From: a candidate division CPR3 bacterium 4484_211
Lineage (GTDB): Bacteria > Patescibacteriota > 4484-211
Reading direction: 5' to 3'
Assembly: GCA_002084955.1 (NCBI GenBank)
Contig: MZGJ01000003.1
Location: forward strand, 1-44,596
Length of the DNA: 44,596 nt
Under the pieces are notes generated by a model. The model saw only the letters and a program-made list of their open reading frames with translations, did no database searches and was not told the DNA's origin. Made by a program: the position numbers and the translations under genes. Every line of letters starts with the position of its first letter. Positions within the stretch are counted from its first letter, which is position 1. Below, piece by piece: positions 7,158 through 36,468 of the stretch.

Positions 7158-7186
7158 ACACCCCACCGCATACGCACTAGGACCCC

Positions 7187-7405
7187 TCACTTCCTCACCT
7201 CATCAAACTCCGCCCGGCGATATGTATTTAAGCGCTTGTCATAAACAAATACCCGCCGACAGCTGCAGGTCACTAACTCCTTGTCTTCATCACCAGGATA
7301 AGGTTGCCTCTCTGCCTCAGACAACGACCGTGCACATCCCACACAATATCCTCTTTTAATTAGCTCTGTCTGTACTCTGTTTTTCAGCGGCTTCCAAAAG
7401 GGCAT
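7187..7405 (-). CDS. small zinc-ribbon-like protein, unknown function
   Basis: 72 residues. Four cysteines form two pairs, CVGC (21-24) and CSC (47-49), the second followed by RRVFVYDK, as expected for a one-knuckle zinc ribbon. The rest is basic. It lies between a membrane-protein gene (24 nt upstream) and tRNA-Ser (about 30 nt downstream), all on the minus strand, so one transcript could cover them. No specific family is recognised; a nucleic-acid- or protein-binding adaptor is possible. Confidence 0.6.
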   Translation of the reverse strand: MPFWKPLKNRVQTELIKRGYCVGCARSLSEAERQPYPGDEDKELVTCSCRRVFVYDKRLNTYRRAEFDEVRK

Positions 7406-7428
7406 GGGAGAATAGGCTATTTTGTCAT

Positions 7429-8496
7429 TCAGTTCACCACCAGTCTCTCTGCTTCTACTTCCACTTTTTCCATCTTAACTATTTTAACCAAAATAAGCAA
7501 CTTGAAAAATAACCAAAAAGCAAAAAGGGCGCCCAAGCTGGTAATCGTATTTAGATAAAACAAAGCCATAAAAGTAAATGCGGCTAAAATCGGTCCCAGC
7601 CACGGCCGCAGTGGCTCCAACAACTGATCTATTTGATCCTGAATCATTACTCCTAACCCCGCCCCAACTATTTCGCCAGGATCACCTGAAACCGGTTCTT
7701 TAATCATCCCCTGTTCGTCTATTTCTACTGTTGACAAAAAACTTTCCACTATCTCCACAGGCATTCCCAAACTCTGCAGCTGTGCCTCATACTCTTTAGG
7801 GATTTTGCCCTCCTCCACCAAAGACCTTAATTCTTCGGGCAGGGGCTCTTCTCCCTGCAAAAACTTATCTAACCAAGCATCATCACTGGTGATTCCCTGC
7901 ACATCTCCTACCCAACTTTCCAGGCTGGATTTGGTAATCTCAGCTACTTGTTCCCCAATCATTCTCATTAAAAAATCGGGAATTTCAAACTTAAAATGGG
8001 ACAGCCATATTGGTGACAGCCAGAACACCTGCAAAGAGACAAGAAGAGACAAAAAAATGCCCAATCGCTTAAACCATGGCAACAATAAATGCGCACAGGA
8101 AAACTTAAGGTGGTTTTTAACATCTCTTTCCAACCTGCGGCCAGCAAACCCCAAAACTAAAACCAAACCTGCCGCCATGAACAAGCCAATATAAACAGCC
8201 CACTCTTGATTGTGGAAAATCTGGTACCGGTAATAGAGCAAGCCAAAGAACAATCCTCCCCAAATCATCAAGCCCCCAAAGAGCAAGCGTTTCTCCCGGA
8301 CAAGTACAGCAAAAAGCCCCCAAAAACCCAAAAAAAGCGCCCAAGCCAAACCGAAGTTTACAAAAACCGTCCACCAAACTGCCGGCTTGCCCAGCAGAGA
8401 GATAATTAAGTTGTCAGCAGAGAACCAAAAAACAAAAAAGGCGACAGCGGCAAGAAGAACAAAACTTAAACCAACCACAATTTGCTTTTTAGACAT
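7429..8496 (-). CDS. polytopic membrane protein, unknown function
   Basis: 355 residues, not recognised. Four hydrophobic helices fill the first ~120 residues. Another lies at about 145-170 (FLSLLVSLQVFWL). A soluble acidic segment of ~110 residues (about 175-285), presumably outside the membrane, precedes two C-terminal helices (about 290-345). The lysine/glutamate-rich tail MEKVEVEAERL should be cytoplasmic. It is the first gene of a minus-strand run (zinc-ribbon protein, tRNA-Ser, histidine kinase), which may mean a shared envelope-sensing role; that is inference only. The ATG lies about 10 nt downstream of an extended -10, so the mRNA is probably leaderless. Confidence 0.7.
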   Translation of the reverse strand: MSKKQIVVGLSFVLLAAVAFFVFWFSADNLIISLLGKPAVWWTVFVNFGLAWALFLGFWGLFAVLVREKRLLFGGLMIWGGLFFGLLYYRYQIFHNQEWAVYIGLFMAAGLVLVLGFAGRRLERDVKNHLKFSCAHLLLPWFKRLGIFLSLLVSLQVFWLSPIWLSHFKFEIPDFLMRMIGEQVAEITKSSLESWVGDVQGITSDDAWLDKFLQGEEPLPEELRSLVEEGKIPKEYEAQLQSLGMPVEIVESFLSTVEIDEQGMIKEPVSGDPGEIVGAGLGVMIQDQIDQLLEPLRPWLGPILAAFTFMALFYLNTITSLGALFAFWLFFKLLILVKIVKMEKVEVEAERLVVN

Positions 8497-29180: not shown

Positions 29181-29211
29181 AAAAAAAATTAAGCGGAGCC
29201 AAGAGCTCCGC
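29181..29211 (-). terminator. terminator-like hairpin directly before rplC (attenuator candidate)
   Basis: On the minus strand GCGGAGC-tcttg-GCTCCGC (29211-29205/29199-29193) is followed by TTAA and eight T (29188-29181), then the rplC ATG at 29179. Stem and U-tract fit an intrinsic terminator. Its position between the operon promoter and the first gene points to attenuation. Confidence 0.7.
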
Positions 29212-29355
29212 CTATTTCTCAACCGCCAAAGGGCAGGACAAGAAAAATCTTATTTCTGCAACTTTGCAACCAACAAAGCGCATTTTCGCTCAGAAAATAA
29301 GCTCCTCGCCAAATTAGTCTTTAAGTTTAACTTGTACATGATCATTTGCATGACC
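29212..29355 (-). promoter_or_regulatory. structured leader of the ribosomal-protein operon
   Basis: The predicted leader runs from about 29355 to the terminator. On the transcribed strand CTTATTTTCTG (29301-29291) can pair with CAGAAATAAG (29258-29249), enclosing two small stems, GCG/CGC (29289-29287/29280-29278) and TTTG/CAAA (29277-29274/29266-29263), i.e. a three-way-junction-like fold. It resembles ribosomal-protein autoregulatory leaders in layout; no known leader motif is recognised. Confidence 0.5.
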
Positions 29356-29361
29356 AGGGGT

Positions 29362-29390
29362 ATTGTAACAAAGCACAACAAGATATGCAA
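29362..29390 (-). promoter_or_regulatory. promoter of the rplC operon
   Basis: Minus strand: TTGCAT (29390-29385), a 17-nt spacer and TACAAT (29367-29362). Start expected near 29355, giving a 5' leader of about 176 nt. Confidence 0.65.
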
Positions 29391-29447
29391 TAGCCTATTG
29401 TGCGGTGACTCAAGACCTTCTCCCTGGATTTCGGTTTAAGAAACACC

Positions 29448-29627
29448 TTAATTGAGGACTTCCAAGAGATTGCCTTTCGCCGCAACAAAGGCAACCGCGT
29501 GGATAATTTTGCCTTCCGGAACCTTTTCTTCTGTCACGGGACACAAAATTTCAGCTGCCACAAAATGGCCGATTTGATACCGGCCTTCGTCCCTGCCGTG
29601 GCCGCAGAGTAGGGGGTAGGAGCCCAA
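29448..29627 (-). CDS. possible 59-aa protein or gene remnant
   Basis: Too short for the ORF track. A TTG (29627) opens 59 codons with coding-like composition (LCGHGRDEGRYQIGHFVAAE ... FVAAKGNLLEVLN) and two cysteines. No Shine-Dalgarno sequence is seen. The frame is closed upstream by a stop six codons before the CGHG region's likely TTG start. No family recognised. It may be the remnant of a longer gene disrupted when the ATPase island arrived, or a real small protein. It occupies most of the 509-nt gap between rplC and the first ATPase gene. Confidence 0.3.
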   Translation of the reverse strand: MGSYPLLCGHGRDEGRYQIGHFVAAEILCPVTEEKVPEGKIIHAVAFVAAKGNLLEVLN

Positions 29628-29632
29628 AGAGC

Positions 29633-29661
29633 TTGACTTTTAACCCTGACCATATTAGAAT
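29633..29661 (+). promoter_or_regulatory. promoter of ATPase gene 1
   Basis: TTGACT (29633-29638), a 17-nt spacer and TAGAAT (29656-29661). Start expected near 29668, about 20 nt before the GTG. No Shine-Dalgarno sequence is seen. Confidence 0.7.
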
Positions 29662-29688
29662 TAAATAGACTTCAGCCATAACCGCATT

Positions 29689-30996
29689 GTGCCTGAAAAG
29701 AGATTAATCCCCCGCAACTTAGAAAAGGAACTTACAAAGTGGCTCAAACGGCCAGAAATACTGGCTATTAAAGGCCCGCGCCAATCGGGAAAAACAACTC
29801 TTTTAAAGAAACTCGAAGTAAAACTAAAGCGAGAAGAAAGCAGAGCGGGTGTGGTTTACATTAATCTTGAAGACCGTGATCGACTGGACCAGTTTACCAA
29901 GGACCCAATAAGGTTTATTGAAAGTTTTAGTCCGAGAAAATCAAAACGGACTTTCTTTCTTTTCGACGAATATCATTATGTACCGGAAGCAGGCCAAAGC
30001 CTAAAACTCCTTTACGACTCTTTTACCCCACAGGTCAAATTTATTATCACTGGGTCATCCTCTTTAGAGCTAACGGCGCAAACCGGCCGCTGGCTGGTAG
30101 GCAGGGTTTTCTCTTTTAATCTATTTCCGGTGAGCTTTGGCGAGTACTTAAATTTCAAAAACCTCCGCCTTTATAACATCTGGCAGGAGAAAAATAACGA
30201 ACTAAGAGATTTTATTGAGGGTAAAAGCCAAAAAGTTAGAGAAGAGGAGGTTTTCTCCTCGGAAATACAAGTTCATTATAGTGACTACCTTCGATACGGA
30301 GGTTATCCGGCGGTAGTAACAGCCGAAGATGAGGAAACCAAGCAGCAAATCCTAAAAAACATTGAAGATACCTACTTGAGGCGTGACATTATCGAACTGC
30401 TAAAGGTGGAAAGCGTGGATAAATATCGCAGGCTGACCCAGCTGATTGCCGGGCAGACTGGTCAATTAGCCAATTATCAGCAGCTATCGCAGGATTCGGG
30501 ACTTTATTTTAAGAAGCTTAAACACTATTTATCAATACTGGAGGAGACTTACGTTATTAGCCGCTTAAGGCCCTACTTTAACAATTTGACCACGGAGATT
30601 AAAAAGAACCCCAAGTTGTACTTTCTCGACAGCGGATTAAGGAATTGGCTGGTGCGGAATTTTAATATGATTGACATCCGCATGGACCGAGGCCAACTGG
30701 CCGAAAGTGTGACTAACTCACTTTTGTACTACTCCTATAGCGAAGAATGGCAGCTCAATTTTTGGCGGACAACCAACGGGGCAGAAATTGATTTTATCCT
30801 GTCCAAAGGAATAAAGTCCCCTATCCCTGCTGAAGTAAAATATTCTTCATTCAACAAGCCCCGAGTAAGCCGCTCTTATAGAAACTTCATCCGCGCCTAT
30901 TCCCCAGAAAGAGGCTTGATACTCACCAAAGATTATTGGGACCAGATACAGATTGGCAAAACTAAAGTAGTTTTTGTCCCCGCATGGGTTTTGTAA
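29689..30996 (+). CDS. AAA+ ATPase with DUF4143 domain, paralogue 1
   Basis: 435 residues, GTG start. N-terminal AAA_14-type ATPase: Walker A GPRQSGKTT (29-37), Walker B TFFLFDEYHY, sensor-like FIITGSSSLEL and arginine in WLVGRVFSF. After YGGYPAVV and the YLRRDI segment comes a winged-helix-like region (about 240-300), then a DUF4143 C-terminus with NGAEIDFIL and AEVKYS, the D...ExK pattern of the PD-(D/E)xK fold. Such proteins are common in CPR and archaea with no settled role; the parts suggest an ATP-driven DNA- or protein-remodelling factor with a nuclease-like domain. First of three tandem paralogues, each with its own promoter. Confidence 0.85.
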   Translation: MPEKRLIPRNLEKELTKWLKRPEILAIKGPRQSGKTTLLKKLEVKLKREESRAGVVYINLEDRDRLDQFTKDPIRFIESFSPRKSKRTFFLFDEYHYVPEAGQSLKLLYDSFTPQVKFIITGSSSLELTAQTGRWLVGRVFSFNLFPVSFGEYLNFKNLRLYNIWQEKNNELRDFIEGKSQKVREEEVFSSEIQVHYSDYLRYGGYPAVVTAEDEETKQQILKNIEDTYLRRDIIELLKVESVDKYRRLTQLIAGQTGQLANYQQLSQDSGLYFKKLKHYLSILEETYVISRLRPYFNNLTTEIKKNPKLYFLDSGLRNWLVRNFNMIDIRMDRGQLAESVTNSLLYYSYSEEWQLNFWRTTNGAEIDFILSKGIKSPIPAEVKYSSFNKPRVSRSYRNFIRAYSPERGLILTKDYWDQIQIGKTKVVFVPAWVL

Positions 30997-31003
30997 AATA
31001 TTG

Positions 31004-31151
31004 AGGATGGGTCATAAATGCCCAACCCGGCTGTAGTCATAATGACAAAAACCAAGCACCAAATGACAAACAAATTCAGAATTCAGAATTTAAATGACCA
31101 AAACCCTCCCATGTTTAGGATTTGGGAATTTGTCATTTGAATCTGGTTTGC
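31004..31151 (+). repeat. dispersed repeat family A, copy 2 (truncated)
   Basis: Starts 7 nt after ATPase gene 1 and matches copy 1 (1931-2085) closely: TGAGGATGGGTCATAAATGCCCAA..., AACCAAGCACCAAATGAC, TTCCCATGTTTAG-like, TTGTCATTTGAATCTGGTTT. The right part of copy 1 (with ATTGGGCATTT) is missing. Confidence 0.8.
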
Positions 31152-31260
31152 TAAAACGCAAAACACTGGATAACTGAGCAACAGCGGTTTTTCTGATGCT
31201 CGAATTTGAGCCAGAGGTTCATCAGCTTTTGGCTGAAATCCGCCTTCGGTAAACCTAATC

Positions 31261-31416
31261 ACCCAATAAATCAGTTAACTAATCAATCTATTTCCCAATT
31301 GTTGATGTTAATTGTTGATGTTGATTGTTGATTGTTAATTGCTGATCGCCGATCTACTCTCTTAAATCCTGGCTTCTGTATTCTGACTTCTACCTTCTAC
31401 ATTCTGTCTCCTGTCT
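31261..31416 (+). repeat. repeat family B, copy 1, upstream of ATPase gene 2
   Basis: ACCCAATAAA..., tandem ATTGTTGATGTTA-type heptamers, then GCTGATCGCCGATCTACTC, AAATCCTGG and TTCTGTATTCTGACTTCTAC...TGTCTCCTGT. Nearly identical to 32915-33062. The number of heptamers differs between copies. With family A it fills the 516-nt gap 30997-31512. Confidence 0.85.
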
Positions 31417-31475
31417 TTATAATGTCCCTCAGCACAACCTTACCTCCCAAGGAAACTATTCCCAAAACTCCTCAC

Positions 31476-31503
31476 TTGACAACCTAAATATCCTTGATAA
31501 AAT
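31476..31503 (+). promoter_or_regulatory. promoter of ATPase gene 2 (leaderless)
   Basis: TTGACA (31476-31481), a 16-nt spacer and TAAAAT (31498-31503), 9 nt before the ATG at 31513. The mRNA should be leaderless. Confidence 0.75.
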
Positions 31504-31512
31504 AGTACTGCT

Positions 31513-32772
31513 ATGCAATTTCTACAAAGAAAGGTCTATCTTGAGGTTAAAAAGCACATAAAGAGTCCGGAAATATCCCTTATTCTGGGACCACGACAGG
31601 CCGGAAAGACCACGATCATGCTAAAACTTAGTGAAGAGCTGGAAAGTCAGGGCCTGGCAACCGCCTATTTTAATCTCGATGTTTTCGAAGACAAGCAATA
31701 CTTTATTACCCAGCACACTCTTTTAGACCGCTTAGAGAAACTGGTTGGTAAAGGGCCGGCCGTAGTTTTTATTGATGAAATACACCGCCTGGAAAATGCT
31801 GGGCTTTTTTTAAAAGGTCTTTATGATCTAAAACCAAGTTATAAGTTTGTCGCCTCTGGATCCGGATCTCTGGAGTTAAAAGCCAATATTATTGAGCCGA
31901 TGACAGGGAGAAAGCGAATTTTTCTGTGCCTGCCGCTTTCTTTTACGGAGTTTGCCGCTAATAAATTAAAGGTGGATTTTGAGCAAGTGACCCGCGTTTT
32001 AGATACTAATCCTTATGCTTGTCAACGTTTAACGGCTGAATACTTTACTTACGGCGGCTACCCCCGTGTGACGCTGAGCGAGACCCATAAGGAAAAGGTT
32101 GCCACACTGGCCGAAATCTATAAAAGTTATCTGGAAAAAGATATTCAGCTTTTATTAAAAGTGGAAAAGGGGCACGCCTTCGAGACCTTAGTTAAAATCC
32201 TAGCCACTCAGGTGGGCAATTTAATCAATCGCTCGGAATTAGCCTCAACAATCGGAGTAACCCAAAAAACAGTTGAAAAGTACCTGTACCTTCTGGAAAA
32301 AACATTTGTAATTTTTCTCCTTAGGCCCTTTTTTAAAGATGCGCGAAGAGAACTCCGCAAATCGCCAAAAGCCTACTTTGCGGATCTAGGCTTTCTGCGG
32401 CTAGCCCAAGGCACACTGCCAGTTTCCAAGCCGCTCCTTAAGGGGAGTCTTTTTGAAAATGCGTGTTTTTTGAGGCTAAAAGAGCTAAACCTTTTGGAAA
32501 CACCTCGATTTTGGCGTTCTCATTCGGGCGCCGAGGTAGATTTTGTTGTCACCTCCCCCCATACAGGAGAAGTAATCCCTATTGAAGCGAAGGTTTCTCC
32601 GCTTAAGCGACAGACGCTGGGTAAAAGTCTAATTAGCTTTTTGCAGCGGTATCGGCCGCGGCAGGCTTACATTTACACTAAAAAGACCAACCTAAACTTT
32701 AAACGTTTTGGTATTCCAATCCGCTATCTACCCTTTCACTTCCTACCGCCTGCACTCCTTAAAAAGTCCTGA
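31513..32772 (+). CDS. AAA+ ATPase with DUF4143 domain, paralogue 2
   Basis: 419 residues. Walker A GPRQAGKTT (26-34), Walker B AVVFIDEIHRL, KFVASGSGSLEL, and the arginine in MTGRKRIFL. The DUF4143 part starts at YFTYGGYPRVT, then a winged helix (NRSELASTIGVTQKTVEKYLYLLE) that is the clearest of the three copies. The C-terminus has SGAEVDFVV and IPIEAKVS (D...ExK). Same layout as paralogue 1 but clearly divergent in sequence, so the duplication is old or the copies arrived separately. No Shine-Dalgarno sequence; the promoter predicts a leaderless mRNA. Role unknown. Confidence 0.85.
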   Translation: MQFLQRKVYLEVKKHIKSPEISLILGPRQAGKTTIMLKLSEELESQGLATAYFNLDVFEDKQYFITQHTLLDRLEKLVGKGPAVVFIDEIHRLENAGLFLKGLYDLKPSYKFVASGSGSLELKANIIEPMTGRKRIFLCLPLSFTEFAANKLKVDFEQVTRVLDTNPYACQRLTAEYFTYGGYPRVTLSETHKEKVATLAEIYKSYLEKDIQLLLKVEKGHAFETLVKILATQVGNLINRSELASTIGVTQKTVEKYLYLLEKTFVIFLLRPFFKDARRELRKSPKAYFADLGFLRLAQGTLPVSKPLLKGSLFENACFLRLKELNLLETPRFWRSHSGAEVDFVVTSPHTGEVIPIEAKVSPLKRQTLGKSLISFLQRYRPRQAYIYTKKTNLNFKRFGIPIRYLPFHFLPPALLKKS

Positions 32773-32914
32773 AACACTCCATCAACCCAAATTCCTATTT
32801 CTCAAACTTCTAACTCATCAGACAAGTTTCTATTCTTCAATGCGGCTCTTATAACACGAGCATGGCAAAGTGTCTTTAGCCAATCGAATTAATCCGCCTA
32901 TGGCGGACCCAACC

Positions 32915-33062
32915 ACCCAATAAACTAATCAATCTATTTCCCAATTGTTGATGTTAATTGTTGATTGTTGATTGTTAATTGTTAATTGCTGATCGCCGAT
33001 CTACTCCCCTAAATCCTGGATTCTGTATTCTGACTTCTACCTTCTACATTCTGTCTCCTGTT
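32915..33062 (+). repeat. repeat family B, copy 2, upstream of ATPase gene 3
   Basis: Matches 31261-31416 over its length, with a different number and order of ATTGTTG/ATTGTTA heptamers. It fills most of the 388-nt gap 32773-33160. Just before it, TCCGCC-tat-GGCGGA (about 32892-32906) is a small inverted repeat. Confidence 0.85.
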
Positions 33063-33125
33063 TTCTATCTTCCCGCCACCTGCCTCTTACTTCCTTTTTT
33101 CTAATACCCAGGTGTCAACCAACAC

Positions 33126-33154
33126 TTGACAATTCTTGTGTCATTTTGTAAGCT
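33126..33154 (+). promoter_or_regulatory. promoter of ATPase gene 3 (leaderless)
   Basis: TTGACA (33126-33131), a 17-nt spacer and TAAGCT (33149-33154), 6 nt before the ATG at 33161. A leaderless mRNA is predicted. Confidence 0.65.
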
Positions 33155-33160
33155 AGTATC

Positions 33161-34342
33161 ATGAATTATCCAAGAAAGCTTCTTCCCATTCTACAAAAGC
33201 AGATTGATTCCAGGGAGATTATTGTGGTAACTGGTATGCGGCGGGTTGGTAAAACCACCCTTTTACAAATGCTCTTTAACGAAATCGAGAGTGAGAATAA
33301 AGTTTTCTTAGATCTGGAAAACCCCATCGAGCAAAAAATTTTTGAAGAAAAAAACTACCATAATATCTGGTCCAATTTACGGGAATATGGCATATCACCA
33401 GAGAAAAAAGCCTACCTTTTCCTGGATGAGATCCAGGCCATGCCGGAAATTGTCAAGGCCATAAAGTACCTTTATGACCACGATAATGTCAAGTTCTTCT
33501 GTACGGGCTCTAGTAGTTTCTATCTTAAAAATCTTTTTCCCGAAAGCCTGGCCGGTCGAAAATTCATTTTTGAACTATATCCCTTAGACTTTGAGGAGTT
33601 TCTAGTTTTTAAAAGCCAGCCAAGAGATTTTTACCATTCGTTTGCCGAGAAAGAGACAAATAAAAGCCTGGTTAGGCATGAAAAGGTTAAAGGCCTTTAT
33701 GAAGAGTACCTTAACTACGGTGGTTTCCCCGGTGTAGTGAGAGAAAAAGATTCTCGGAAAAAAAAGCTTAAACTTAACGACATTTTTAAGTCTTATTTTG
33801 AAAAGGACGTAAGAAACCTTGCCGATTTTAGAGAGATCAATGCTTTTCGCGACCTTATTTTACTTTTAATGCAAAGAGTCGGCTCAAAGCTGGATATTAC
33901 CAAGTTGTCTTCGGAAATAAGCGTCTCAAGAGAAACGGTCTATTCTTATCTTTCTTTTCTTGAAGGAACCTACTTTATCAGTTTGATATCGCCCTACACT
34001 TTGAGTGTGGACCGCGAAGTAAGCGGGACAAAAAAGGTCTATTTTTGTGACAGCGGTCTATTAAACCATCTGTCGCAGTTGACGCCGGGGCACCTATTTG
34101 AGAATTCTGTGTTTAACAGCCTGAGAAAATACGGGCATATCAATTACTACCAAAAAAGATCCGGAGCGGAGATTGATTTTATTATCAATAAAGACATCGC
34201 TCTTGAGGTTAAGACAAAAGGAACATTAAGAGATCTGCGGAAATTAAAGAAAATCTCCCAGTCGTTGAATTTAAGCGAGCATTATCTGATTAGTAAGGAT
34301 TTTGTCGGGGAGAAAGGTTTTTTACCAGCCACAGAGCTCTAG
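33161..34342 (+). CDS. AAA+ ATPase with DUF4143 domain, paralogue 3
   Basis: 393 residues, the shortest and most divergent. Walker A GMRRVGKTT (25-33), where the PRQ of the others is MRR; Walker B AYLFLDEIQAM; FFCTGSSSFYL; LAGRKFIFELYPLDFEEFL; YGGFPGVVRE; winged helix with KLSSEISVSRETVYSYLSFLEGTYF; C-terminus SGAEIDFII and ALEVKTKG (D...ExK). The GMRR(V/R)GKTT version is typical of a separate DUF4143 subfamily, so this copy may have come from a different source. It lies 209 nt before the antitoxin gene on the same strand. Confidence 0.85.
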   Translation: MNYPRKLLPILQKQIDSREIIVVTGMRRVGKTTLLQMLFNEIESENKVFLDLENPIEQKIFEEKNYHNIWSNLREYGISPEKKAYLFLDEIQAMPEIVKAIKYLYDHDNVKFFCTGSSSFYLKNLFPESLAGRKFIFELYPLDFEEFLVFKSQPRDFYHSFAEKETNKSLVRHEKVKGLYEEYLNYGGFPGVVREKDSRKKKLKLNDIFKSYFEKDVRNLADFREINAFRDLILLLMQRVGSKLDITKLSSEISVSRETVYSYLSFLEGTYFISLISPYTLSVDREVSGTKKVYFCDSGLLNHLSQLTPGHLFENSVFNSLRKYGHINYYQKRSGAEIDFIINKDIALEVKTKGTLRDLRKLKKISQSLNLSEHYLISKDFVGEKGFLPATEL

Positions 34343-34405
34343 TTTTTTTAAGCGAAAAAGCCCGAGAAGATAAACTTTTCTTCGCAAATCTCACAAAACA
34401 CCAAG

Positions 34406-34448
34406 TTCAATTTTCAATTTTTAATTTTTAATTTTCAATTTTTAAATT
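34406..34448. repeat. TTTTCAA/TTTTTAA low-complexity tract
   Basis: Tandem AATTTTCAATTTTTAATTTT-type octamers upstream of the antitoxin promoter, similar in style to family B but with different words. Gap 34343-34551 holds this tract and the promoter/operator. Confidence 0.5.
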
Positions 34449-34513
34449 CTTCACCAATCCCAAACCACCAAATTTATAACCGATCCCCGCTTCCCAACTT
34501 GAGATTTATCATC

Positions 34514-34552
34514 TTGACAGACCGACACCGTTGATGTAACATCATTACATCA
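34514..34552 (+). promoter_or_regulatory. promoter and operator palindrome of the toxin-antitoxin pair
   Basis: TTGACA (34514-34519), a 17-nt spacer and TAACAT (34537-34542), ATG at 34552. The perfect inverted repeat TGATGTAA (34532-34539)/TTACATCA (34545-34552) covers the -10 and start codon, a natural site for self-repression by the antitoxin. Expected transcription start is almost at the ATG. Confidence 0.7.
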
Positions 34553-34872
34553 TGGATAAGCAAGCTCAAATCATAAAATCAATTACAAAAGATAATAAAT
34601 ACTCTCTCAGAACACAGATCTCTCTCTCCGTAGCCCTGCGTAGAGCGGTTGATGCAAAAAGGAAATTATATGGCGAGACTCTGGCCGAGTACTTACGTAA
34701 AGCAATTTTAATGAGGCTGATGGCTGAGGAAACAGAGGAAAATGAACTGGCTATTTTAGCCAAGGCAGTCGTTGGTTCAGTTTCTAAAAATAGAGGCGGC
34801 TGGAAAAATATTAAAAATATTAATACTTGGCAAAAAAGGACCCGGCAAAAAGAAGGCTGTCATAGGAGTTAG
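34552..34872 (+). CDS. antitoxin of a VapBC-like pair
   Basis: 106 residues. The N-terminal half (about 15-55) could form a ribbon-helix-helix or short helical DNA-binding unit (SLRTQISLSVALRRAVDAKRKLYGETLAEYLRKAILMRLM), and the C-terminal half is charged, as expected for a toxin-neutralising tail. Its identity rests mainly on context: the next gene, 2 nt downstream, is a PIN-domain toxin, and a perfect palindrome overlaps its promoter. Length is at the high end for VapB. I see no closer family assignment. Confidence 0.65.
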   Translation: MDKQAQIIKSITKDNKYSLRTQISLSVALRRAVDAKRKLYGETLAEYLRKAILMRLMAEETEENELAILAKAVVGSVSKNRGGWKNIKNINTWQKRTRQKEGCHRS

Positions 34873-34874
34873 AG

Positions 34875-35261
34875 ATGTCAGAAAATTACCTTCTGGACAC
34901 CAACATTGTGCTTGAGGCCATTTGGGGTAAAGAACCTGTTGCCTCGAGAGTAGCCAGTTGGATCAAAAGAGGCCAAATTGTTCTTTCTCCAATTGTCGTT
35001 GCCGAGATTTATGCCAAGGCCAGTCAGGAAGAAAAAGAGAAGTTGGAGCTACTAATTGGTAAATTTGGAGTATTACCTATTGATGTCGTCACCGCGAGAA
35101 TTGCCGGTGACTATCGTCATCGCTTTCTAAGAAAGAAAAAGAAAGTTTTCTTAATGGATTGCCTTATCGCCGCCGCAGCTAAACTTTACAGTCTCACTCT
35201 AGTAACCCACAATACCTCGGATTACCCCATGACCGATATCAATATTTTAGATCCGCGGTAG
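34875..35261 (+). CDS. PIN-domain ribonuclease toxin (VapC-like)
   Basis: 128 residues. The conserved acidic residues of PIN nucleases are all visible: Asp8 in LLDTNIV, the Glu in VAEIYAKA, the Asp in FLMDCLIAAAAK, and the final Asp in THNTSDYP. VapC toxins cut tRNA or rRNA when the antitoxin is degraded. The ATG follows AGGAG at 6 nt and starts 2 nt after the antitoxin stop, so both are co-translated. RtcB, encoded in this window, could in principle repair some such cuts (speculation). Confidence 0.85.
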   Translation: MSENYLLDTNIVLEAIWGKEPVASRVASWIKRGQIVLSPIVVAEIYAKASQEEKEKLELLIGKFGVLPIDVVTARIAGDYRHRFLRKKKKVFLMDCLIAAAAKLYSLTLVTHNTSDYPMTDINILDPR

Positions 35262-35310
35262 CGATTGCGCGTGAGTTGGTAAACAGCCCGCATTACAATC
35301 TTACAAATAT

Positions 35311-35520
35311 TCATTTCTTTCTTCCTTTTTGTGAGCGGCGGCGCAGAAGGGTTAACTGCCGGGAAGAAGTAAATTTATAACTTACCGACTGCTTCTCCAT
35401 ATCCACTTCCACCTTAACCTCGTCTCCATCTTTAATCCCCAACACATTTCTAAAGACAGCCGGAATAACTACCACCAGTGAATTTCCTGCTTTAAAAACT
35501 TTTTGTTTTGTGGACGCCAT
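35311..35520 (-). CDS. SpoVT/AbrB-type DNA-binding protein (MazE-like)
   Basis: 69 residues. The first ~50 form a swapped-hairpin AbrB domain: VFKAGNSLVVVIPAVFRNVLGIKDGDEVKVEVD, with the GNSLVV(V/I)IP core of MazE/AbrB proteins. The C-terminus is a basic tail (LLRRRSQKGRKK). It begins 10 nt after the winged-helix gene upstream on the same strand, and lies back to back with the PIN toxin. As an antitoxin it has no obvious toxin; the upstream gene may be its partner, or it may regulate locally. Confidence 0.75.
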   Translation of the reverse strand: MASTKQKVFKAGNSLVVVIPAVFRNVLGIKDGDEVKVEVDMEKQSVSYKFTSSRQLTLLRRRSQKGRKK

Positions 35521-35530
35521 TGATGCAACC

Positions 35531-36133
35531 CTACGGACTCATGAGATTAAAACTTTGCTCATCCCCAATAAGCATAATCTGCGGCTGGGACAAAATCTTT
35601 AGAACAAAACTGTCTCTTCTTTTCTTGCGAAAGTTAAACTCCTCTACCGTCATCACCGAATAGTTTATCTGCCGACCATCTTCTTTTTCCGCAGTCTGAA
35701 TAAGCTCTTCCAGCAACCTTAACTTAACACGCCCCACAATCAACAAGTCCACCTGCCTTTCACTGGCCACTCTTCCTTCCACAAATGGCAGTGCCATCAT
35801 GGCGTACTTTATGCTTCCCAGCTCTTCCCGCCGCTCAATGATCCTTTTTCCCAGACGGGTAGTTTTAGCCACCAAGCGGATAATTTCCGGATAAAAAACA
35901 AACTCTTTTCTTGCCTTATAAAAAAGTCTGTTCCCCCGCTGCTTGCTTTTTAACAGGCCGACGGCAACCAACCGCCCCAGCTCGCGTCTGACCGCATTAA
36001 TCTCTTCTCCAATAATTCGGCAAATTTGCCGCACGTACAGCTCTTTATCCGAAAGAAGGAGAAGACCAAGAATTTTAATACGAACGCGCGAAGTAAATAG
36101 AGCCAGCAATTTTCTTTCCATATCTTTATGCAT
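35531..36133 (-). CDS. winged-helix regulator with degenerate nucleotidyltransferase-like domain
   Basis: 200 residues. Residues ~8-75 form an ArsR-like winged helix (FTSRVRIKILGLLLLSDKELYVRQICRIIGEEINAVRRELGRLVAVGLL). Residues ~105-190 resemble the MNT nucleotidyltransferase fold at QVDLLIVGRV, where active enzymes have GS-x-(n)-D-x-D-(L/I)-(L/I)V; the glycine-serine motif is not seen, so catalysis is unlikely. This wHTH plus NTase layout is known in archaea and CPR without settled function. It is followed by the AbrB-like gene after 10 nt, suggesting a two-gene unit. Confidence 0.65.
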   Translation of the reverse strand: MHKDMERKLLALFTSRVRIKILGLLLLSDKELYVRQICRIIGEEINAVRRELGRLVAVGLLKSKQRGNRLFYKARKEFVFYPEIIRLVAKTTRLGKRIIERREELGSIKYAMMALPFVEGRVASERQVDLLIVGRVKLRLLEELIQTAEKEDGRQINYSVMTVEEFNFRKKRRDSFVLKILSQPQIMLIGDEQSFNLMSP

Positions 36134-36224: not shown

Positions 36225-36461
36225 TTAGGTAAATTTGTAATAGCAGATTTCAGTCCGCGATCTGTGCGCGCAATAGGCCAAGCTTGCAACTCAGCGATAA
36301 AACAAGAGCCGCTCCTTGAAAAGGGCGAATCTGTAAAATGTCAAATTAAAAATGCCCAATGTCAAACCAAATCCAAATGACAATTTTCTAAATTCTAAAC
36401 ATGGGAAGGTTTTGGTCATTTAAATTCTGAATTTGTTTGTCATTTGGTGCTTGGTTATAGT
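36225..36461 (-). repeat. dispersed repeat family A, copy 3 (inverted)
   Basis: The reverse complement matches about 1972-2195 of copy 1: ATAACCAAGCACCAAATGAC, TTCCCATGTTTAG, ATTGGGCATTTTTAATTTG, TTTTATCGCTGA, CTTGGCCTATTG, GCGGACT. It stops at the end of the DUF3048 gene. The flanking 36170-36245 has short AGTCCGC/GCGGACT repeats. It fills the 335-nt gap 36134-36468. Confidence 0.8.
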
Positions 36462-36468
36462 CGTTCAT

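Follow-up and report, generated by a model that had tools for sequence, protein, structure and literature searches.

Background

Proteins in which an ATPase is fused to a PD-(D/E)XK domain have been listed as PDC-S01, which ranks fourth in frequency among the (candidate) defences of prokaryotes (PMC12988326), and compact single-gene systems are frequent in small host-dependent genomes, those of Patescibacteria included (PMC12988326). In Thermus thermophilus, the DUF4143 gene TT_P0211 was up 6.6-fold with plasmid DNA in Ago-positive cells, and the ago mutant showed no plasmid response (PMC4406477). Under the bare names DUF4143 and COG1373, no function was given in the papers examined. In this study, we describe three genes of this kind, G1, G2 and G3, which stand in a row on contig MZGJ01000003.1 of candidate division CPR3 bacterium 4484_211 (positions 1 to 44,596; this whole stretch of 44,596 nucleotides is referred to as the window). 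The locus is probably an accessory pocket beside the S10 operon, collecting divergent stand-alone sensor-effector nucleases of the PDC-S01 family together with a VapBC-like pair.

The family itself is already known. A first-pass annotation, made from the letters of the window, had proposed a defence role for the three genes; all three match PDC-S01 of PADLOC, a listed candidate (PMC12988326), so the defence idea was already in the literature and its proposal is an independent rediscovery. What is new is the empty site, the exclusion of a neighbouring AbrB/winged helix-turn-helix (wHTH)-nucleotidyltransferase pair from the island, the confident nuclease fold with McrC as the closest solved structure, and the pattern of stacks built of divergent members.

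Results and discussion

G1, G2 and G3 are complete members of the PDC-S01 family

The open reading frames (ORFs) of G1, G2 and G3 were found in place (Table 1), and each lies above the Pfam cut-offs for AAA_14 (PF13173; 94-119 bits, cut-off 27) and DUF4143 (PF13635; 106-127 bits, cut-off 28.1), so that all three are taken as real genes. In the ATPase part of each protein, Walker A (GxRxxGKT, with its lysine/threonine), Walker B (DE), the sensor-like GS and the GR are complete, as are the nuclease-type residues E...ExD...ExK of the C-terminal part. These residues are near-invariant among 110 family members (G3 numbering): D89/E90 and D339 are present in 110/110, E337 in 107, E314 and K351 in 106 each, and E349 in 105. 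The first-pass description of three full-length AAA+/winged-helix/DUF4143 ATPases in tandem, with intact Walker A and B motifs and a C-terminal nuclease signature, was thus confirmed. In PADLOC-DB, G1-G3 match PDC-S01 across almost their full length (expect value, E, 4e-72 to 6e-84), the closest model being PDLC04789 for G1 and G2 and PDLC04787 for G3. Near-full-length profile matches together with intact Walker A/B and PD-(D/E)XK residues place all three in the PDC-S01/AAA_14-DUF4143 family. As read from sequence, each protein is shown to combine a predicted AAA+ ATPase, a winged-helix-like middle, based on weak helix-turn-helix matches in Pfam and a moderate model of G3, and a C-terminal DUF4143 domain holding all catalytic residues of the PD-(D/E)XK type.

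Predicted structures of the nuclease and ATPase parts

A model of the last 160 residues of G2, built with 22 sequences, reached a predicted local distance difference test score (pLDDT) of 87.2 and a predicted template modelling score (pTM) of 0.83. The model shows, with confidence, a predicted PD-(D/E)XK nuclease fold in which the secondary structure runs helix-strand-strand-strand-helix-strand and E56, E82/D84 and E99/K101 occupy the PD-(D/E)XK positions; E56, E82, D84, E99, K101 and G52 are the only invariant columns in the alignment. The first-pass annotation had set structure prediction as a check, with a C-terminus outside the nuclease fold as the outcome that would speak against it, and the model of G2 gave the opposite answer. 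When the model was compared with the PDB using Foldseek, four McrC chains came out on top (E 2e-4 to 7e-4), followed by weaker, mixed matches that included HindIII, DdmD and Card1, at modest template modelling (TM) scores of ~0.4. On these best matches, McrC would be the closest solved relative of the G2 nuclease domain. Used as a sequence profile, the same alignment gave few and weak matches, among them Card1, Cas4 and a CARF nuclease (E 0.02-0.36). Confident folding covers the G2 C-terminus, and the nuclease fold of G3 was obtained at low confidence.

A full-length AlphaFold model of G3, built from six sequences, was moderate (pLDDT 71.6, pTM 0.67). Its best PDB match was the archaeal ATPase PABY2304 (2qen; E 5.6e-9), and next came Orc1/Cdc6, Apaf-1, plant NLRs and the bacterial STAND protein Avs5, with a likeness to RFC and RuvB also seen. 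The family profile matches SSO1545 (2fna; E 4.5e-10), and the G3 sequence alone found nothing useful in the PDB. In structure, the ATPase part resembles Orc1/Cdc6, RFC and RuvB, which would suit housekeeping enzymes of DNA metabolism (replication, repair or Orc1/Cdc6-like loading) that are multi-copy by chance. However, the family is patchy (94/286 genomes, 0-12 copies), missing from two thirds of relatives, without a conserved place and highly divergent; because of this patchy distribution a housekeeping role is largely refuted, and we regard it as very improbable.

The stack is composed of members from separate subclades

Pairwise identity among G1, G2 and G3 is 32-33%, in agreement with the strong divergence noticed at first pass. 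A tree of 110 family members, computed with FastTree from a trimmed alignment, places the nearest relatives of G1, G2 and G3 all in other genomes of the phylum; in a smaller tree, G1 paired with a copy from its own genome that lies on a different contig. The low identity and the tree rule out that G1-G3 arose by recent tandem duplication, and the earlier term 'paralogues', in the sense of local duplicates, does not hold. The sequences show that the three genes come from separate subclades, which means separate arrivals, or an ancient duplication followed by wide exchange, and not a recent local duplication.

The same pattern extends beyond this locus. Family members cluster in the sampled genomes, with 9 pairs within 4 kb vs 0.73 expected. 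In the 110-member tree, 18/19 neighbouring pairs are not mutual nearest relatives, and the median tree distance is 3.70 for neighbouring pairs vs 3.58 for all pairs. Since neighbours are not sisters and lie about as far apart as random pairs, the stacks have been put together from divergent members; that neighbours are as unrelated as random members separates 'collected for diversity' from 'tandem duplicates'. A second tandem DUF4143 triplet was observed in a genome of the same family (L156, G003:C111, 2949-7460); it consists of three other subclades and has the same divergent character. Integration linked to tRNA genes was considered as a route of entry; some copies do lie near tRNA genes, but a rough estimate from gene density predicts about as many, and a link is therefore not claimed.

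Nine DUF4143 matches are found in the 826 kb genome, corresponding to seven complete genes, one stop-broken copy, with two in-frame stops, and one fragment. The first-pass inference that keeping three intact copies implies selection was therefore too strong, because two decayed copies lie elsewhere in the genome.

G1-G3 lie on a bounded insert beside the S10 operon

In a family-level relative (JAHJGY01, L056), the gene order is u37700 - DUF3048 - wHTH-NTase - AbrB - rplC (52-65% identity), and no gene separates AbrB from rplC. Because the wHTH-nucleotidyltransferase (wHTH-NTase), AbrB and rplC are adjacent in this relative, the one genome from which the empty site is known, the insert can be delimited as G1, G2, G3 and a VapBC-like pair. 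The AbrB/wHTH-NTase pair, which the first-pass annotation had included in the block, does adjoin it, but belongs to the conserved flank: the empty site is syntenic, and the wHTH-NTase gene is core-like, being present in 17/20 sampled genomes and usually single-copy. Both facts rule out this pair as island members. The VapBC-like pair does adjoin G1-G3, as stated at first pass (PIN domain, E 2e-15).

The GC content of the insert is 0.414 vs 0.457 in the rest of the window, which is not extreme for the genome, as 4/37 comparison windows are lower. A GC content below the window average, together with the two decayed copies elsewhere in the genome, one of them interrupted by two in-frame stops, would be expected if the three genes were neutral cargo, that is, recent arrivals still uneroded and without present function. 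We give this explanation little weight, since three long ORFs keep every motif despite deep divergence and promoter-like sites directly precede G1 and G2.

Gene neighbourhood, mobility and possible function

Within 2 kb of family members, 140 genes were compared with PADLOC, and AbiEi (4), AbiEii (4), type IIG (2) and type I restriction genes were found; for 141 control genes of the same genomes, none of these PADLOC families was among the matches listed. Pfam likewise gave AbiEii (5) and PIN (2) near family members, neither being among the control matches listed. In a whole-genome test, 6/23 AbiEii genes had a DUF4143 gene at a distance of 5 kb or less vs 0.87 expected (P about 1e-4). These synteny statistics assume uniform placement, and the assemblies are fragmented. 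The synteny with defence and toxin-antitoxin genes looked for at first pass was thus found for AbiE, type I and IIG restriction-modification genes and other family members, and was not significant for VapBC outside this genome; a general VapBC/PIN linkage of the family was accordingly discarded.

Other copies of this genome have company of their own. One (L147:9867-18656, G000:C19) lies between a XerC/D-like recombinase with tRNA-Asn and a restriction island of XRE, RadC and type I restriction genes (HsdM, AlbA-like, HsdS), and another lies near AbiE. The decayed gene (L151:98-9055, G000:C16) is beside several PHD/VapC-like pairs, another VapBC pair and an AAA ATPase (7178-8101).

A use of the nucleases in episymbiosis, for degrading or otherwise handling DNA of the host or the environment or for competing with other episymbionts, would accord with the small genome of a Patescibacterium and with the frequency of compact single-gene systems in such host-dependent genomes (PMC12988326). 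However, the neighbours are restriction and AbiE genes rather than uptake or secretion genes, no signal peptide or secretion gene was noticed in the sequences, and free-living bacteria and archaea commonly carry the family as well (PMC12988326), all of which makes this use highly unlikely.

The strongest rival explanation is that G1-G3 are selfish or addictive genes, carried by or stabilising mobile DNA as toxin-like or TnsC-like helpers, and piling up in harmless pockets with no antiviral benefit. The family occurs on hundreds of plasmid records and also on viral contigs, and a Runella plasmid carries a gene with 42% identity to G3. Moreover, the ATPase part is weakly similar in sequence to transposon TnsC, a toxin-antitoxin pair shares the insert, decayed family copies are present in the genome, and the direct repeats around G2 would permit gene loss or gain. 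On the other side, the insert carries no transposase, integrase or replication gene, no antitoxin partner is common to G1, G2 and G3, the ATPase and nuclease sites are intact across the family, and there is the excess beside AbiE and restriction genes. We consider this explanation unlikely, although the present data part it only weakly from a defence function.

Several points weigh against the defence function. PDC-S01 is unvalidated, with experimental validation pending, and no family member has been shown to stop a phage (PMC12988326). The clustering fits equally well with mobile or addictive genes landing in tolerated pockets. The choice of AbiE followed the neighbour scan, which makes its P value optimistic, and the a priori PIN test was not significant (4/40 within 5 kb vs 1.65 expected, P=0.08), with 3/4 of the PIN cases within 5 kb coming from this genome. 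Additionally, modelling of full-length G3 reached no more than a moderate score (pLDDT 71.6), and most of the C-terminal part is <63.

Under the defence function, for which the sensing, target and antiviral effect of G1-G3 are what we infer, each protein would act as a stand-alone sensor-effector. The ATPase/winged-helix part would bind a nucleic-acid or protein cue of the invader and act as an ATP switch, which would release or position the McrC-like nuclease domain; this domain would then cut DNA or RNA, so that the invader is cleared or the infected cell is stopped. Several divergent versions might widen the range of invaders recognised, and a single gene could be gained or lost by recombination between the two ~180 bp direct repeats that flank G2. 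A further step, which we put forward as improbable, would be a repertoire locus of divergent ATPase-nucleases, with a separate promoter and trigger for each, whose members are exchanged singly between short direct repeats. If true, the set of recognisers would differ from lineage to lineage within one phylum, and the locus would be the counterpart, in innate immunity, of a cassette array.

Promoter-like sites, repeats and flanking genes

Table 1 Features of the insert and its flanks (positions in the window)
Feature	Position	Strand	Description
Accessory insert	29390..35305		~5.9 kb between S10/rplC operon promoter and abrB; edges +/- few hundred bp left, ~50 bp right
G1	29689..30996	+	435 aa, GTG start; AAA_14 ATPase, winged-helix-like middle, DUF4143 PD-(D/E)XK-like C-terminus; PDC-S01 E 5.8e-84
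G2	31513..32772	+	419 aa; AAA_14 and DUF4143; nuclease-like C-terminal part from ~32290 to gene end; PDC-S01 E 7.7e-78
G3	33161..34342	+	393 aa; AAA_14 and DUF4143; PDC-S01 E 4e-72
Putative antitoxin	34552..34872	+	Ribbon-helix-helix-like by eye; no family match; directly upstream of vapC
VapC-like PIN-domain toxin	34875..35261	+	PF01850 E 2.1e-15
G1 promoter-like site	29633..29661	+	TTGACT-17-TAGAAT, 10/12 matches
G2 promoter-like site	31476..31503	+	TTGACA-16-TAAAAT, 11/12 matches
G3 weak promoter-like site	33126..33154	+	Perfect TTGACA (33126-33131), 17-nt spacer, poor -10 TAAGCT; read from sequence
Toxin-antitoxin pair promoter-like site	34514..34542	+	TTGACA-17-TAACAT, 10/12 matches
Direct repeat copy 1	31237..31417	+	Upstream of G2
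Direct repeat copy 2	32891..33064	+	Upstream of G3
Dispersed imperfect-palindromic repeat copy	31030..31160	+	~120-130 bp element, between G1 and G2
Dispersed repeat, other window copy	1959-2080	+
Dispersed repeat, other window copy	36363-36465	-
Conserved flank: S10/rplC operon promoter and leader hairpin	29190..29385	-	Promoter TTGTTACAATAC; alignment with L056, homologous to empty site
Conserved flank: AbrB/MazE-type regulator	35311..35520	-	60% identity to L056, same place
Conserved flank: wHTH-nucleotidyltransferase	35531..36133	-	PDC-M05A-like, core-like; PDLC04368 E 3.3e-34 (PADLOC)

The first-pass annotation had assigned each gene its own promoter. This was supported for G1 (10/12) and G2 (11/12), whose sites ranked top in a consensus scan, although the total of 17 sites in the region is little above that of shuffles (11.5 +/- 4.0); for G3, the site is weaker (perfect -35, poor -10) and absent from the output of the scan. 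The -10-like hexamer ends 6-9 nt before the ATG of G2 (31503/31513), G3 (33154/33161) and the antitoxin gene (34542/34552), and leaderless transcripts would therefore result. The putative antitoxin ORF encodes 106 aa, ends 2 nt before vapC and has no Pfam profile match. Another ORF of 63 aa, at 29448-29639(-), was rejected as a gene remnant, as it neither matches a Pfam family nor has a relative in 37 other genomes.

Two direct repeats of ~180 bp bracket G2. They are 88% identical (95% over the core) and hence far more alike than G2 and G3, the very different genes behind them. Neither this genome nor 286 others of the phylum yielded a further full copy, and a known mobile element was rejected as their source, only short, low-complexity matches being found elsewhere. 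From their sequence, these repeats are read as a probable trace of recent recombination at the scale of a single gene, and not as proof of exchange. A different, dispersed repeat, with ends AAATGCCCAA...TTGGGCATTT, has 43 matches in the 826 kb genome, 10 weaker ones in a genome of the same family and almost none elsewhere; its copies are often found at contig ends. By its sequence and spread, it is a putative miniature inverted-repeat transposable element (MITE)- or repetitive extragenic palindromic (REP)-like element, recently amplified. With 43 matches genome-wide, the copies at 31030 and 36363 are unspecific and do not mark the island boundary.

On the left flank, the rplC promoter TGTTACAATAC and the leader hairpin are kept in both this genome and L056. 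The GC-rich hairpin with its T-tract (29190-29214(-)) lies directly upstream of rplC and is kept in L056 though much of the surrounding leader has diverged; it is possibly an attenuator or leader element of the S10 operon. This operon lacks rpsJ beside rplC here. In L056, rplC is apparently frameshifted at its 5' end (L056:4436-4445), likely through a sequencing error or a true indel. The closest L3 proteins are mostly from Patescibacteria, Woesebacteria, Daviesbacteria and Levybacteria, which indicates a Patescibacterium of the Microgenomates type. On the right flank, the neighbours of the wHTH-NTase are AbrB and DUF3048, and a HEPN-domain partner was not found beside it; because this partner is missing, the PDC-M05A match does not make a PDC-M05 system. 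The presence of the AbrB and wHTH-NTase pair beside the rplC operon in two genomes suggests a conserved regulator or NTase.

Comparison with known systems

PDC-S01 is among the commonest candidate defences in prokaryotes. The present locus offers a bounding empty site, three intact divergent versions side by side, and a confident nuclease fold with named catalytic residues.

For the ATPase and winged-helix parts, the archaeal Walker-type ATPases (2qen, PABY2304; 2fna, SSO1545; PF01637) and the STAND ATPases (such as Avs5) gave the best fold match over the full length as well as the top profile match of any meaning. However, PF01637 scores 21-25 bits in G1-G3, below the cut-off of 33.2, and the long sensor repeats of the Avs proteins are lacking. 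McrBC resembles the present proteins in coupling an AAA+ motor to a PD-(D/E)XK nuclease, and McrC chains are the best solved matches of the G2 C-terminus. In contrast to McrBC, each of G1-G3 is one polypeptide and not two, no McrB-type DNA-reading domain was found, and G1-G3 have no McrB/McrC family match in Pfam or NCBIfam.

The DUF4143 ATPases of Thermus thermophilus pTT27 are plasmid-borne relatives, with 27% identity to G1. The pTT27 copy at 209853-211073 (L285:5998-12507), which may or may not be TT_P0211, keeps company like that seen here, since two VapC genes and XerD lie no more than 5.5 kb from it. Closest of all is PDC-S01 itself, which G1-G3 match in full length, in being one-gene units with an ATPase fused to a PD-(D/E)XK domain, and in their patchy, multi-copy occurrence. 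The published candidate is a single-gene system, whereas in the present locus three divergent members follow one another, accompanied by a VapBC pair, on one bounded insert.

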